NCBI GenBank assembly: GCA_025363355.1
Contig: JANYEB010000195.1
Span: forward strand, 1-40,560
Length of the DNA stretch: 40,560 nucleotides
Direction of reading: 5' to 3'
DNA from: Chitinophagaceae bacterium
Lineage (GTDB): Bacteria > Bacteroidota > Bacteroidia > Chitinophagales > Chitinophagaceae
Position numbers and translations under genes: made by a program. The notes under the pieces are model-generated. The model was not told the origin of the DNA and did not search any database. It worked only from the letters and a program-made list of their open reading frames with translations. Positions 24,197 through 28,918 of the stretch are shown one piece after another; positions within the stretch are counted from its first letter, which is position 1; the number at the start of each line of letters is the position of its first letter.

Positions 24197-26041
24197 ATGA
24201 AAAGGCTTTTTCTTAGCATTATAATTTTACTGATTACTACACCATTAAATGAACTACTTGCACAAAAAGATAGTTTAAATTATGTGTATGATTCCTTTTT
24301 TTTAGCTAAGAAAAAAGGAATTTTTGGGCGTCTAGGTAAAAGTATTACAGCTGATGAACCAAAGCCAACATTAACCATTACTGGTGTTGTAAAAAATAAT
24401 TTGCCTTACAACAGATACAGGGGCTTGCCCATTAGACATATTAATATTGTTTGTTTAGACCTAAATCAAGACATCAACGACTCTACCAAAAGAAAACGTG
24501 GTATTTTAAATAGAATTGCTATTGCACTGCACAAAAAATCAAGGGAGGCTATTATAAAAAATAATTTATTTTTTAGCGAAGGAGATAAACTTTATCCCTA
24601 TTTACTGGCAGATAATGAAAGATACTTACGTGAACAAGTCTATTTAGAAGATGCCAAGATAACTATTAAGCCTGTTGATTTTGGCAATGCAGTAGATGTA
24701 TATGTTTATACCAAAGATGTATTTTCTGTTGGTGGCAGTTTAAACATCAGTGGCAGTAACAGTTTTGATGGAGAATTGAAAGATGAAAACTTTTTAGGTA
24801 ATGCAACAAGAATTTCTTTCAAGGCATTGTATGATGTAACTAGAGGCCCAGAATTGGGATATGGTGGAGAGTTTTTACAAAGAAATATTGCTGGATCTTT
24901 TTTAGATTTTTCTGCTGGATTTAAGAGTTTTAATACAGCTTTCAGCAGTGGAAGACCTGAAGAAACTTATACTTACTTAAAGCTTGACAAACCCCTTGTA
25001 AGTCCATATATGCCTTTTACAGGTGGTATTGATTTGTCTTGGCATAGAACATCTAATAATTATGTAGTTGACTCTGTTTACAACAAAGAAATTAATTACG
25101 AATATGTAGATTTTGATGCTTGGGGTGGATTTAACTTAGGCACTAAAAAATTTCTAAATAAAAATATTCAAAAACGTATTCGAGAGTTTATTGCAATAAG
25201 GGTTTTTCATCATCAATTTCAACAGGTTCCTGGGCTTTACCAAAATAGTTATAATTATGTATATGCCAATATTACTGGGGTTTTAGGAGCCATTAATATC
25301 TTTAAACAAAACTTCTATAAAACAAAATACATTTATGGTTTTGGAAGACAAGAAGATGTACCAGAAGGTTTTAATTTAAGCCTGATTGGTGGTTGGACAG
25401 ATAAACAAAATCGCCCTAGGCCTTATGCTGGAATTGATTTTGCTAGAAATTATTTTGGCGAAAAAGGTAACTACTATAACTACACTTTTAGAACTGGCGG
25501 GTTTTATTACAACTCTAATTTTGAAGACATCAATTTGCTTTTTAACCTTGAATTCTTTAGCAGGTTAAAAGCATTGGGTAAACGTTGGCACTCTAGAAAC
25601 TTCACCAACTTGGGTATTACCCAACAAATACGTACAACACTAGACCAACCTTTATTTCTTAGCAGTCCATTTGGTTTGCCAGAAATTTCTAATGGCGATA
25701 TTGCTGCACAAACAAGGGTTACATTGAAACAAGAACGTGTTTTTTATACCAATTGGAATTTGCTTGGTTTTAGATTTGCTCCTTTTTTATTTGCCAATGG
25801 ATGCTTTTTAGTACCAACTACAGAGAACATTACAAAAGGTGAATTTTACAGCAGTTTAGGTGGTGGTTTAAGAACAAGAAATGAATCTTTAATTTTTGGA
25901 ACAATGGAACTTAGACTTAACTATTTTCCTAGAATTAATTTTGGAATGCAGGAATTTAGAATTGATTTTAAAACTGATTTGCGTTTTAAATACAATAGCC
26001 AATATATTAAACGTCCAGACTTTGTTTTGGCAAACGGATAA
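24197..26041 (+). CDS. POTRA plus beta-barrel outer-membrane protein (BamA-like)
   Basis: The 614-residue protein has a signal peptide (MKRLFLSIIILLITTPLNELLAQ). A POTRA-like domain follows (about 65-170; LPIRHINIVCLDLNQDIND, LFFSEGDKLYPYLLADNERYLREQVYLEDAKITIKPV). From about residue 175 the sequence is a series of beta strands forming a barrel. It belongs to the wide BamA/surface-antigen superfamily; it has too few POTRA repeats to be the essential BamA, so a more specific transport or anchoring role is likely. A -7-like TATGTTCG is at 24173-24180. Confidence 0.8.
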   Translation: MKRLFLSIIILLITTPLNELLAQKDSLNYVYDSFFLAKKKGIFGRLGKSITADEPKPTLTITGVVKNNLPYNRYRGLPIRHINIVCLDLNQDINDSTKRKRGILNRIAIALHKKSREAIIKNNLFFSEGDKLYPYLLADNERYLREQVYLEDAKITIKPVDFGNAVDVYVYTKDVFSVGGSLNISGSNSFDGELKDENFLGNATRISFKALYDVTRGPELGYGGEFLQRNIAGSFLDFSAGFKSFNTAFSSGRPEETYTYLKLDKPLVSPYMPFTGGIDLSWHRTSNNYVVDSVYNKEINYEYVDFDAWGGFNLGTKKFLNKNIQKRIREFIAIRVFHHQFQQVPGLYQNSYNYVYANITGVLGAINIFKQNFYKTKYIYGFGRQEDVPEGFNLSLIGGWTDKQNRPRPYAGIDFARNYFGEKGNYYNYTFRTGGFYYNSNFEDINLLFNLEFFSRLKALGKRWHSRNFTNLGITQQIRTTLDQPLFLSSPFGLPEISNGDIAAQTRVTLKQERVFYTNWNLLGFRFAPFLFANGCFLVPTTENITKGEFYSSLGGGLRTRNESLIFGTMELRLNYFPRINFGMQEFRIDFKTDLRFKYNSQYIKRPDFVLANG

Positions 26042-26068: not shown

Positions 26069-27031
26069 TTACACTGCGTTGTAGATATAATAGACATTAA
26101 AAATAAGATAGCCAATCAATAACACTCTTGCAGCAATAGAATCAAAACGATTGGCTTTAGTTAATTGATCTTTTTTACCTAATTGCAAAGCATAGGCAGA
26201 ACAGGCAACAACAGCAAAAATAAAAAATAGGGTTATCCCATGCAAGGTATCCACCAAAGTAAATGTTGTAGAATCGGGCAAAGAGGAATCAACAATATAT
26301 TTATTACCGATAACTGCAAACAAAGAACCCACACTTAATCCAAAGCGAGAATCAATATTATCTGCGTGTATAAAAAAGCATACAAATGCTAACAGAAATG
26401 CAACATACATACCCAAAAACATTTTTGCAAACAACTCAAGTGCATCCCTTCTTATTCCCAATTTTACTTTGAAAGAACTGTATTCTGTGCGTGGTTTTCC
26501 AACAATTGAATCACCAAATGCAGTTTCGTAAACCTTAGTGCCTGTAGCCATTTTAAAGCTATCAATATCCCAGCCTCTTAAAGTAAATTTTTTATCAAAA
26601 TGTTCTCCTATTGTATCACATACAAAAACAAAATCTTTTGAATCAAATTGCGAATTTTCTATTGAGAATCGTAGGTTTTGTCTGTCAAAAGGGAAATTAT
26701 TAATCTTCCAATTATCTTTCATCACACATTGCAGCTTCATTAAAATAAACATTTTACCGTTTGATGAATCTACCGTTGAAAATGATTTGGTAAAGGTTTT
26801 TGCCTGTGGAATTTCTAAGTTTTGCAAAAAATCAAGTTCCTTATTGGTATAGGTTAACCATAACCACAGGTTGATATTATATTCGTTTTGTTTAAAATCA
26901 ATATCGTGAATACTGGTAATATAAATACCTGTTTTCACTGTGTCGGGATGACTACTCTCTGCAAAAGAAATAGATGGTAGAAACGCAAAAGCCAAAACAA
27001 ATAGCACTGGAATTATTCTTAGTTTTTTCAT
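26069..27031 (-). CDS. Pentameric ligand-gated ion channel homologue
   Basis: The 320-residue protein has a signal peptide (about 1-24). An extracellular beta domain of about 170 residues contains the hallmark FPFDRQ (113-118), the same core as in bacterial ELIC. Four membrane helices follow at about 201-222, 230-248, 257-283 and 301-319, with an M2-M3 segment SSLPDSTTFTLVD that has the conserved Pro (252). The two loop cysteines are absent, as in other bacterial members. It would form a pentameric channel in the inner membrane gated from the periplasm; the ligand and ion are unknown. It converges on the barrel gene with a 27-nt gap. Confidence 0.85.
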   Translation of the reverse strand: MKKLRIIPVLFVLAFAFLPSISFAESSHPDTVKTGIYITSIHDIDFKQNEYNINLWLWLTYTNKELDFLQNLEIPQAKTFTKSFSTVDSSNGKMFILMKLQCVMKDNWKINNFPFDRQNLRFSIENSQFDSKDFVFVCDTIGEHFDKKFTLRGWDIDSFKMATGTKVYETAFGDSIVGKPRTEYSSFKVKLGIRRDALELFAKMFLGMYVAFLLAFVCFFIHADNIDSRFGLSVGSLFAVIGNKYIVDSSLPDSTTFTLVDTLHGITLFFIFAVVACSAYALQLGKKDQLTKANRFDSIAARVLLIGYLIFNVYYIYNAV

Positions 27032-27457: not shown

Positions 27458-28063
27458 TTAAAAATCTATTAATACGTGTGTACCAATTGTCGAAAACTTT
27501 TCATCTTCTAAACCCTTTTTATAAAACATTCCTATCATAATACCCAATCCTTTCCAATCAGCTCTTGATGAGCCAAAACGTACACCTGCTCTGTAAAGAA
27601 CTCCATAAGTAGCTCCTGAATAATTAGAATACCGACTACTAGATAAATTAGTTTTTGAATAGCCGAATCCTGTACCAAAAAAATACCCAAATTTTTTAGG
27701 GTTTACTCTTGTTGACTTAAATCCAATATTATAGTCTAAAGCAAGTGGCAAATCGTAAGAAAACACAACACCAGCATCACTATTGCCAGTTGTACTAAAA
27801 AGTCCAATGCCAACACTTAAAGGCATTCCCAAGCTAATTGATGAGTTTTTATTTTCAACAAAATTATAACGAGGATAATAGGTAAGTGTAGATTGTAAGA
27901 GTGAGAAATTATAGTAATTACTTGAACTAACTGGATTAAGATTAGGTGACAATTTTGCTGATATATTACTAATAGTTGCTCCAAAAGCATGCATAAATTT
28001 TTGGGCATTGCTTTTAGTAATTAAAAGCATAAAAAAAATGAGGAAGTAAATTGTTTTTTTCAT
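27458..28063 (-). CDS. Small outer-membrane beta-barrel protein
   Basis: The 201-residue protein starts at MKKTIYFLIFFMLLITKSNAQ, a signal peptide; an open frame seven codons longer is less likely. Repeated amphipathic strands (SLLQSTLTYYPRYNF, SISLGMPLSVGIGLF, FGYFFGTGFGYSKT, YGVLYRAGVRFG) form a porin-like barrel, ending in a strand that finishes with Phe. No substrate can be given. Confidence 0.75.
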   Translation of the reverse strand: MKKTIYFLIFFMLLITKSNAQKFMHAFGATISNISAKLSPNLNPVSSSNYYNFSLLQSTLTYYPRYNFVENKNSSISLGMPLSVGIGLFSTTGNSDAGVVFSYDLPLALDYNIGFKSTRVNPKKFGYFFGTGFGYSKTNLSSSRYSNYSGATYGVLYRAGVRFGSSRADWKGLGIMIGMFYKKGLEDEKFSTIGTHVLIDF

Positions 28064-28141
28064 TTTTAATAATTTGTTGCACAATGATAATAGGAATTCT
28101 ATTAAATGTTTTAAGAAGTTGCTATTATATTCATCAATAAT

Positions 28142-28201: not shown

Positions 28202-28918
28202 TTAATAGTTTTGTTTAATAAATCCCCATTCACGCATTACAGCATCTTTATTATCGGGATAATTAGCTGCAATTAAATGACCAATAGCCACCAACACTTT
28301 ATTAATTTGTTCTCTATCGCTATCCTTTGCCGATACTTTATTACTAACAGTTTTAGATGTGTCGGTGGTAGCTTTTAATGCAGTTTTAAAACTAGAAGTT
28401 GTAGCTGTCCAAAATGCAGTACCAAACTCTTCTGCTGCAAAACCATCGGCAGCAATAGCAGCTGCGATAATAGGCAATGCCAATAAACGTTTATCATTAT
28501 CTTTTGGTAAACGATAGTTGCTACCTTCTTTCACAATACCATAACGAGCAAATTGTGCAGTAGCATTGGCTTTTTTAAATTTCCTTTCAATATAAGTTTT
28601 CACGTCTGTAACAGCTGCATCAATTTGAGTATTTACCTGTTTCAAGGTTTGTGTTTGTGCAGGTTTGCTACTTCCAGCAGATAATCTATTTGCTAAATTG
28701 CCGGCATAGCTGTTGGCTAATGCTTCAAAAGCAGCTTGCGTTATCCATAATAAAATGAGTGCAGGATTTAGTTTCCATTTGGCACTAACTGATAGGGCAA
28801 GGGTAGAAAAATCAGAATCTTTTTTAGGAATGTTACTTGTTTTTTGAGCCTTTGTTTTTGGCGTTATTTCTCCGCCTGTTGATGGATTTGCATCTGCTGC
28901 AAGTTGTTTCTTTTTCAT
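28202..28918 (-). CDS. Orphan hypothetical protein beside the second 21-bp array
   Basis: The 238-residue protein has no signal peptide. The first 35 residues are Lys-rich and disordered-looking (MKKKQLAADANPSTGGEITPK). The rest is alpha-helical and rich in Ala, Lys and Thr, with a Trp-containing helix (LNPALILLWITQAAFEALANSYAGNLANRLS), a central YGIVKEGSNYRLPKDNDKRLLALPIIAAAIAADG segment and the ending MREWGFIKQNY. I do not recognise a family. The gene has its own terminator, and its start faces the 21-bp array at 28990-29199. Confidence 0.7.
   Translation of the reverse strand: MKKKQLAADANPSTGGEITPKTKAQKTSNIPKKDSDFSTLALSVSAKWKLNPALILLWITQAAFEALANSYAGNLANRLSAGSSKPAQTQTLKQVNTQIDAAVTDVKTYIERKFKKANATAQFARYGIVKEGSNYRLPKDNDKRLLALPIIAAAIAADGFAAEEFGTAFWTATTSSFKTALKATTDTSKTVSNKVSAKDSDREQINKVLVAIGHLIAANYPDNKDAVMREWGFIKQNY

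Follow-up and report, generated by a model that had tools for sequence, protein, structure and literature searches.

An intact open reading frame in the genome of a Chitinophagaceae bacterium encodes what is, by family, a subunit of a Cys-less pentameric ligand-gated ion channel (pLGIC), for which sequence and predicted fold lead us to expect pentameric assembly and gating. The protein belongs to a large clade that lacks the proline of the first transmembrane helix (M1) and carries an unusual, nearly fixed pore helix (M2). Taken singly these features are already on record; what the sequences would add is a strongly selected, uncharacterized branch that combines this M2 with the lack of the M1 proline across the clade.

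A Cys-less pLGIC subunit gene

The window (the whole stretch of 40,560 nucleotides analyzed, contig JANYEB010000195.1 of assembly GCA_025363355.1) carries the gene at 26069-27031 on the reverse strand, where an ATG opens a 320-residue reading frame that is single-copy in its genome. A Pfam search with the window protein returned PF02931 (Neur_chan_LBD) at E 1.4e-8 and, with 34.9 bits, above the cut-off of 26 bits, and a phmmer search of the PDB returned 141 sequences at E<=1, headed by the GLIC/GlyR chimera 4x5t (E 9.6e-16) with GLIC next (best E 1.9e-10). The two NCBIfam ligand-gated-channel models reached only 62 bits where 280 are required and 56 bits where 500 are, and the plasmid-borne relatives L143, L144, and L147 are annotated as hypothetical proteins, so that standard annotation is likely to miss the clade.

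The preliminary description had called the product a Cys-loop-type receptor. Membership of the pLGIC family is borne out by PF02931, the GLIC match, and the fold, whereas the strict Cys-loop label is not: no cysteine lies within residues 103-137 of the window protein, and with no Cys pair beside the loop it is a Cys-less Pro-loop pLGIC. The FPFDRQ motif and the proline of the M2-M3 loop on which that description relied were confirmed at residues 113-118 and at P252. It made no mention of the unusual transmembrane helices of the clade, with glycine for the M1 proline and G6', F9', G13', and K15' in M2. As pLGIC genes in Bacteroidota have been on record since 2004, for example in Cytophaga hutchinsonii (PMC549065), the family call is not new and the finding as first stated is ordinary. 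The features are as follows.

26069..27031, reverse strand: pLGIC subunit gene, Cys-less, 320 aa (reading frame, PF02931, GLIC match, fold)
26960..27031, reverse strand: probable signal peptide, residues 1-24, with a basic start, hydrophobic core, and SFA end (sequence inspection; predicted helix 6-16)
26441..26959, reverse strand: ligand-binding beta-sandwich (ECD), residues 25-197 (Pfam, model, structural alignment)
26678..26695, reverse strand: Pro loop FPFDRQ, residues 113-118, with P114 (119/119 clade rows) and D116 (118/119)
26657..26659, reverse strand: E125 of loop B, aligned with ELIC E131 (acidic in 20/20 diverged rows)
26480..26530, reverse strand: loop C, residues 168-184, with Y168, T170, G173, D174, and Y184 (alignment conservation)
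26447..26449, reverse strand: R195, the pre-M1 arginine (119/119 clade rows)
26372..26440, reverse strand: M1, residues 198-220 (model, alignment)
26411-26413, reverse strand: G207 in M1, at the M1-proline position of GLIC, ELIC, and GlyR (alignments, 61/61)
26282..26356, reverse strand: M2, residues 226-250, with D-2', R0', G2', G6', F9', G13', K15', Y16', and D19' (model, alignment)
26258..26281, reverse strand: M2-M3 loop, residues 251-258, with P252 (model, alignment)
26174..26257, reverse strand: M3, residues 259-286, with D261 and H264 (model, alignment)
26075..26164, reverse strand: M4, residues 290-319 (model)

The AlphaFold2 single-chain model, built from a 61-sequence alignment, had a mean pLDDT of 85.4 and a pTM of 0.67. 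Strands lie between residues 30 and 195 and are followed by helices at 198-220, 226-250, 259-286, and 290-319, giving the order sandwich-M1-M2-M3-M4 with a predicted M3-M4 loop only a few residues long. The four helices had been read from the sequence in the expected order; the predicted chain shows both them and the beta-sandwich, and no contrary fold was seen. A Foldseek search of the PDB gave 1107 chains at E<=0.001 (best E 2.4e-22), and VIA-align re-alignment of 1000 chains gave Z>=8 in all. The best 50 of these 1000 had Z 23.4-24.4 and rmsd 2.1-3.2 A over 276-283 residues at 15-21% identity, and thus no close solved structure exists. The top structural matches, with Z near 24 along the mature protein, were GABA-A, GluCl, and glycine receptors. 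Of these GlyR shares R0', G2', and the M1-M2 loop length, whereas the window protein lacks the Cys pair and M1 proline of these receptors, has DSR in place of PAR, and has almost no M3-M4 loop.

The clade lacks the M1 proline and has a nearly fixed M2

By the published criterion a pLGIC has an [FY]PxD Pro loop with an invariant proline, and across pLGICs the pre-M1 arginine is found in 94%, the M2-M3 proline in 88%, and the M1 proline, a usual rather than a defining residue, in 77% (PMC4795631 Table 1). The window protein has the Pro loop, the sandwich with four transmembrane helices, the pre-M1 arginine, and the M2-M3 proline, and it lacks the M1 proline, a residue elsewhere stated to be present in all pLGICs (PMC4813548, PMC9607081). 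From the loci collected we took open reading frames of at least 180 aa that matched the A1 profile at E<=1e-5. The 167 matches fell to 140 upon removal of rows with identical last 150 residues and made 141 rows with the window protein. At the GLIC M1-proline column these rows have G in 119, P in 13, C in 4, V in 2, T in 2, and I in 1; the clade was taken to comprise 124 rows, namely all those with G or C and one of the two with V.

M2 was numbered from ELIC, in which L240 is 9' (PMC9674596) and aligns with F238 of the window protein. The 119 G rows, which include the window protein, retain the coupling residues (pre-M1 R in 119, Pro-loop P in 119 and D in 118, M2-M3 P in 118 with one gap) and share R0' (117), G2' (105), G6' (117), F9' (117), G13' (115), K15' (116), and Y16' (118), with D/E at -2' in 112 and at 19' in 116. 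The 13 P rows have instead T6' (11) and L9' (11), no K15', and a mixed 19'. A second Bacteroidota pLGIC group with the normal M1 proline and Leu9' (L125-L132) is nearer in sequence to the GLIC, GABA-A, and GlyR chains. In an unrooted tree of 76 rows the window side (64 rows) was separated from the M1-Pro Bacteroidota plus GLIC with support of 100/99. Two Streptomyces rows within the window side carry M1 Pro, and GLIC, Azospirillum, L164, L123, L161, and L142 sit on long branches.

An acid at 19' accompanies K15' in 121 of 121 rows, as against 1 of the 18 non-K 15' rows having a letter at 19'. One helical turn apart, K15' and D19' could form an intrahelical salt bridge. GlyR Q266, which in M2 comes closest to the M1 proline (PMC9607081), aligns directly before the K244 column, and K15' is therefore hypothesized to lie near the M1 glycine. 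A statistical test of the K15'/acid19' and M1 Pro/F9' couplings was dropped owing to too few independent changes; for K15'/acid19' only one to two were counted, on a tree built from all 320 columns, the trait columns included.

Among the 14 diverged rows, mean pairwise identity was 64% for M2, 46% for the M2-M3 loop, 43% for M1, 37% for M3, 33% for the ECD, 25% for M4, and 17% for the M1-M2 loop. The pore helix is thus the segment most guarded by evolution.

Jaiteh et al. reported 5% Gly at the M1-proline position and 13% Phe at 9' (PMC4795631), which suggests that clade members were among their sequences. As early as 2004 Tasneem et al. noted that the residue at the bend of M1 is P, G, or S, in the first report of such channels in the phylum (prokaryotic ART-LGICs of Cytophaga and others); by the description given there, on which our comparison is based, the sequences were treated together and neither the clade nor its M2 pattern was singled out (PMC549065). 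In the portions of the open-licence literature consulted we found no description of the combination of M1 Gly with G6', F9', G13', and K15'/D19' as fixed in one large clade.

The M1 proline is needed in GLIC, nAChR, and 5-HT3R, and in nAChR and 5-HT3R the lack of a backbone NH at this position is reported to be important (PMC4813548); GLIC P203A is non-functional. Substitution by Ala has no effect in ELIC and in GlyR comes at a cost of about 5-fold in EC50 (PMC9607081), so that loss of the M1 proline is not fatal in every channel. A glycine in its place would keep a weak point in the helix but retain the backbone NH. A large, strongly selected natural set without the proline is suited to asking what purpose is served by an M1 kink that is essential in several channels.

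A putative ligand site and a proposed gating mechanism

We compared ECD conservation across 14 diverged clade members and 13 M1-Pro rows. Positions common to both groups include G35, Y37, W58, Q118, E125, D139, Y168, T170, and G173, together with P114, D116, and R195. As the two Bacteroidota groups have site residues in common, they may also share an old ligand class. Y184, aromatic in 19 of 20 rows, aligns with ELIC F188, which together with ELIC Y175 we take to be a ligand-site aromatic. Y168 aligns two columns before ELIC Y175, making that match ambiguous, and ELIC F133 is S127 in the window protein. In ELIC, E131 contacts the ligand and E131, F133, and Y38 are site residues (PMC9674596); the E125 column that holds E131 is acidic in all 20 diverged rows and is Ile in GLIC. 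ELIC, the amine- and GABA-gated channel of Erwinia/Dickeya, further shares the fold, the domain order, FPFDRQ, and an aromatic at 16' (F247; Tyr in the window protein), and differs in having the M1 proline P211 and Q2', T6', L9', A13', and A15'. An amine-type ligand is the best single guess from these alignments, although not a strong one, the reading being softened by the replacement of F133 and the lack of a clean match to Y175. On Azospirillum sp. B510 plasmid pAB510b (L169:8564-17834) a clade member belongs to a run of co-directional genes that also encode an SBP_bac_5 peptide-binding protein, a TPR protein, an alanine racemase, and an ABC-type substrate-binding protein. This run, which resembles the binding-protein neighbors described by Tasneem et al. 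(PMC549065), hints at an amino-acid-like ligand.

Judging from sequence and model, the product is probably a stand-alone, Cys-less homopentameric channel of the inner membrane with a periplasmic ligand-binding domain and a putative Phe9' gate, which a ligand in the periplasm, perhaps an amine, would open. Five identical subunits would assemble, as the single gene copy and the family suggest. A small periplasmic solute, most likely cationic (an amine, as for ELIC), would bind between subunits in a pocket made of E125 in loop B and Y168, T170, G173, and Y184 in loop C, residues that are conserved. Binding would then shift both the Pro loop, involving D116 together with R195, and the M2-M3 loop with its P252; here too the residues are conserved and the movement is presumed. 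A tilt of M2 would open two rings, that of F9' between the 6' and 13' glycines and that of Y16', allowing ions to pass, and the polar K15'/D19' pair in upper M2 may take part. With its proline replaced by a nearly fixed glycine, M1 would have to gate without it. D-2' and D19' might confer a slight cation preference, although the pre-M2 motif is no guide to selectivity in prokaryotes (PMC4795631). The plainest guess at a cellular role is a lone sensor that alters membrane potential or ion content. More tentatively, and with doubt outweighing confidence, the clade may form a widespread Bacteroidota branch of lone-gene sensors that combine a conserved periplasmic amine-type site with an alternative gating core (M1 Gly, Phe9' between glycine rings, and K15'/D19') and no M1 proline hinge.

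GLIC, the proton-gated Gloeobacter channel, shares the Pro loop, the pre-M1 arginine, and the M2-M3 proline and is the nearest PDB sequence when chimeras are included. Proton gating of the GLIC type, with acidification of the periplasm rather than an organic ligand opening the channel, gains from this kinship and from several conserved acids and the M3 residue H264, which could titrate. It is nonetheless unlikely, since loop B has the glutamate of ELIC at a position occupied in GLIC by isoleucine, the conserved loop C motif is absent from GLIC in the alignment, and the GLIC 11' histidine is V240 in the window protein (V or A in most rows). GLIC also has and needs the M1 proline and has S6', I9', and N15'.

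Slightly less likely again is a divalent sensor resembling DeCLIC of Desulfofustis, in which Ca2+ at the interface of loop F and beta1-beta2 would hold the channel shut and its depletion would open it. The conserved acids D139 (where loop F begins), D146 (inside loop F), and D43 (beta1-beta2 loop region) occupy suitable sequence positions, and divalent cations commonly inhibit family members at this interface (PMC9897478). DeCLIC, compared here by its published description, is likewise a prokaryotic pLGIC with a 16' aromatic, F561, but it has L9' (L554) and an extra N-terminal domain (PMC9897478) that the window protein lacks, and the aromatic residues conserved in loop C hint at an organic ligand.

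It is improbable that the protein is a non-conducting periplasmic sensor of pLGIC fold, which would have lost the M1 hinge and the polar pore lining and would signal by conformation only. The missing M1 proline of the clade, the glycines at 6' and 13', and Phe9' in place of the usual Leu would fit such a protein. A pore helix that is more conserved than the ECD and the retention of all coupling residues do not, and with an M3-M4 loop predicted at a few residues and no conserved partner gene there is no obvious downstream partner.

Distribution, selection, and gene neighborhood

Among 84,980 GTDB species genomes, 370 stretches encode a relative, of which 80 were kept, all bearing the names of Bacteroidota taxa. 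Since genera such as Chitinophaga, Mucilaginibacter, and Pedobacter are represented and include named strains, a single-gene knock-out is feasible as a step toward a first biological role, none being known for any unicellular-organism pLGIC according to Jaiteh et al. (PMC4795631). Searched with the window protein, 34 of 195 genomes of the host family have the gene; the matches are free of internal stops, and of two congeners one carries the gene and the other lacks it. These figures uphold the earlier remark that such channels are patchy in bacteria, and a profile search found the gene in 33 of the 395 class genomes searched and in 23 of 395 at the level of the phylum. Plasmid outliers at 25-31% identity came from Azospirillum (8 records) and Streptomyces (2). 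No relative was found in 50,697 phage records, and 29 pattern matches in IMG/VR included none. Two far longer open frames with partial profile matches, G1098:C46 (795 aa) and G1045:C75 (752 aa), are possible fusions to extra domains.

A single copy is usual among the 80 loci (78, with two tandem pairs), and the tandem pairs lie in L005/L039 and L014/L105. Genome G1072 has four clade members, two in tandem at C36 (L158) and the others at C1 and C17. In the tandem copies examined, none of the site and pore residues checked has been lost, and heteromers are therefore possible.

Close pairs gave dN/dS values of 0.022-0.093 (15 of 17 pairs; the other two were saturated), a sign of strong purifying selection that led us to reject a pseudogene. 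That the gene might be decaying, or a functionless passenger in its host, is favored only by the patchy occurrence within the host family and between congeners and can practically be dismissed given these values, the stop-free host-family matches, and the 370 encoded relatives.

The largest non-channel similarity cluster among the neighbors covers 7 of 81 loci. Of 80 loci, 39 have the upstream gene on the strand of the channel gene and 41 have it divergent. Together with the single copy, the lack of a conserved neighbor and this mixed orientation are what one would expect of a gene acting alone. Pfam assignments covered 70 of 77 upstream proteins (six of at least 900 aa and the near-copy L095 were left out) and 73 of 78 downstream proteins (one of at least 900 aa, L034, L052, L072, and L095 were left out), and no family recurred in more than four members. 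Gene neighbors were accordingly rejected as a route to the ligand, in keeping with the preliminary view that they do not point to one. Na+/H+ exchangers flank 3 of 70, too few to count; the two that are named are both from Mucilaginibacter and both divergent, and they recall the Microbulbifer case of Tasneem et al. (PMC549065).

In the window the channel gene begins 44 bases after yjbR on the same strand, and the YjbR neighbor noted earlier is real (PF04237, E 8.7e-29). None of the window genes appears in the 24 next-largest neighbor clusters listed. The 27458-28084 frame, previously called a small barrel, has no Pfam or NCBIfam match, and 28202-28918 (reverse strand, 238 aa) has no family above the Pfam or NCBIfam cut-off. 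Just past the 3' end of the channel gene, 24197-26041 (forward strand, 614 aa) matches TIGR03303 (BamA-type) below cut-off and no Pfam family; it is probably an outer-membrane barrel. On an Azospirillum argentinense Az39 plasmid (L145:93-3972) the gene of a distant pLGIC with M1 Thr and F9' comes immediately downstream of genes for type VI secretion (ImpA_N and Hcp families), and in A. brasilense L146 has open reading frames of the same sizes as this type VI region.
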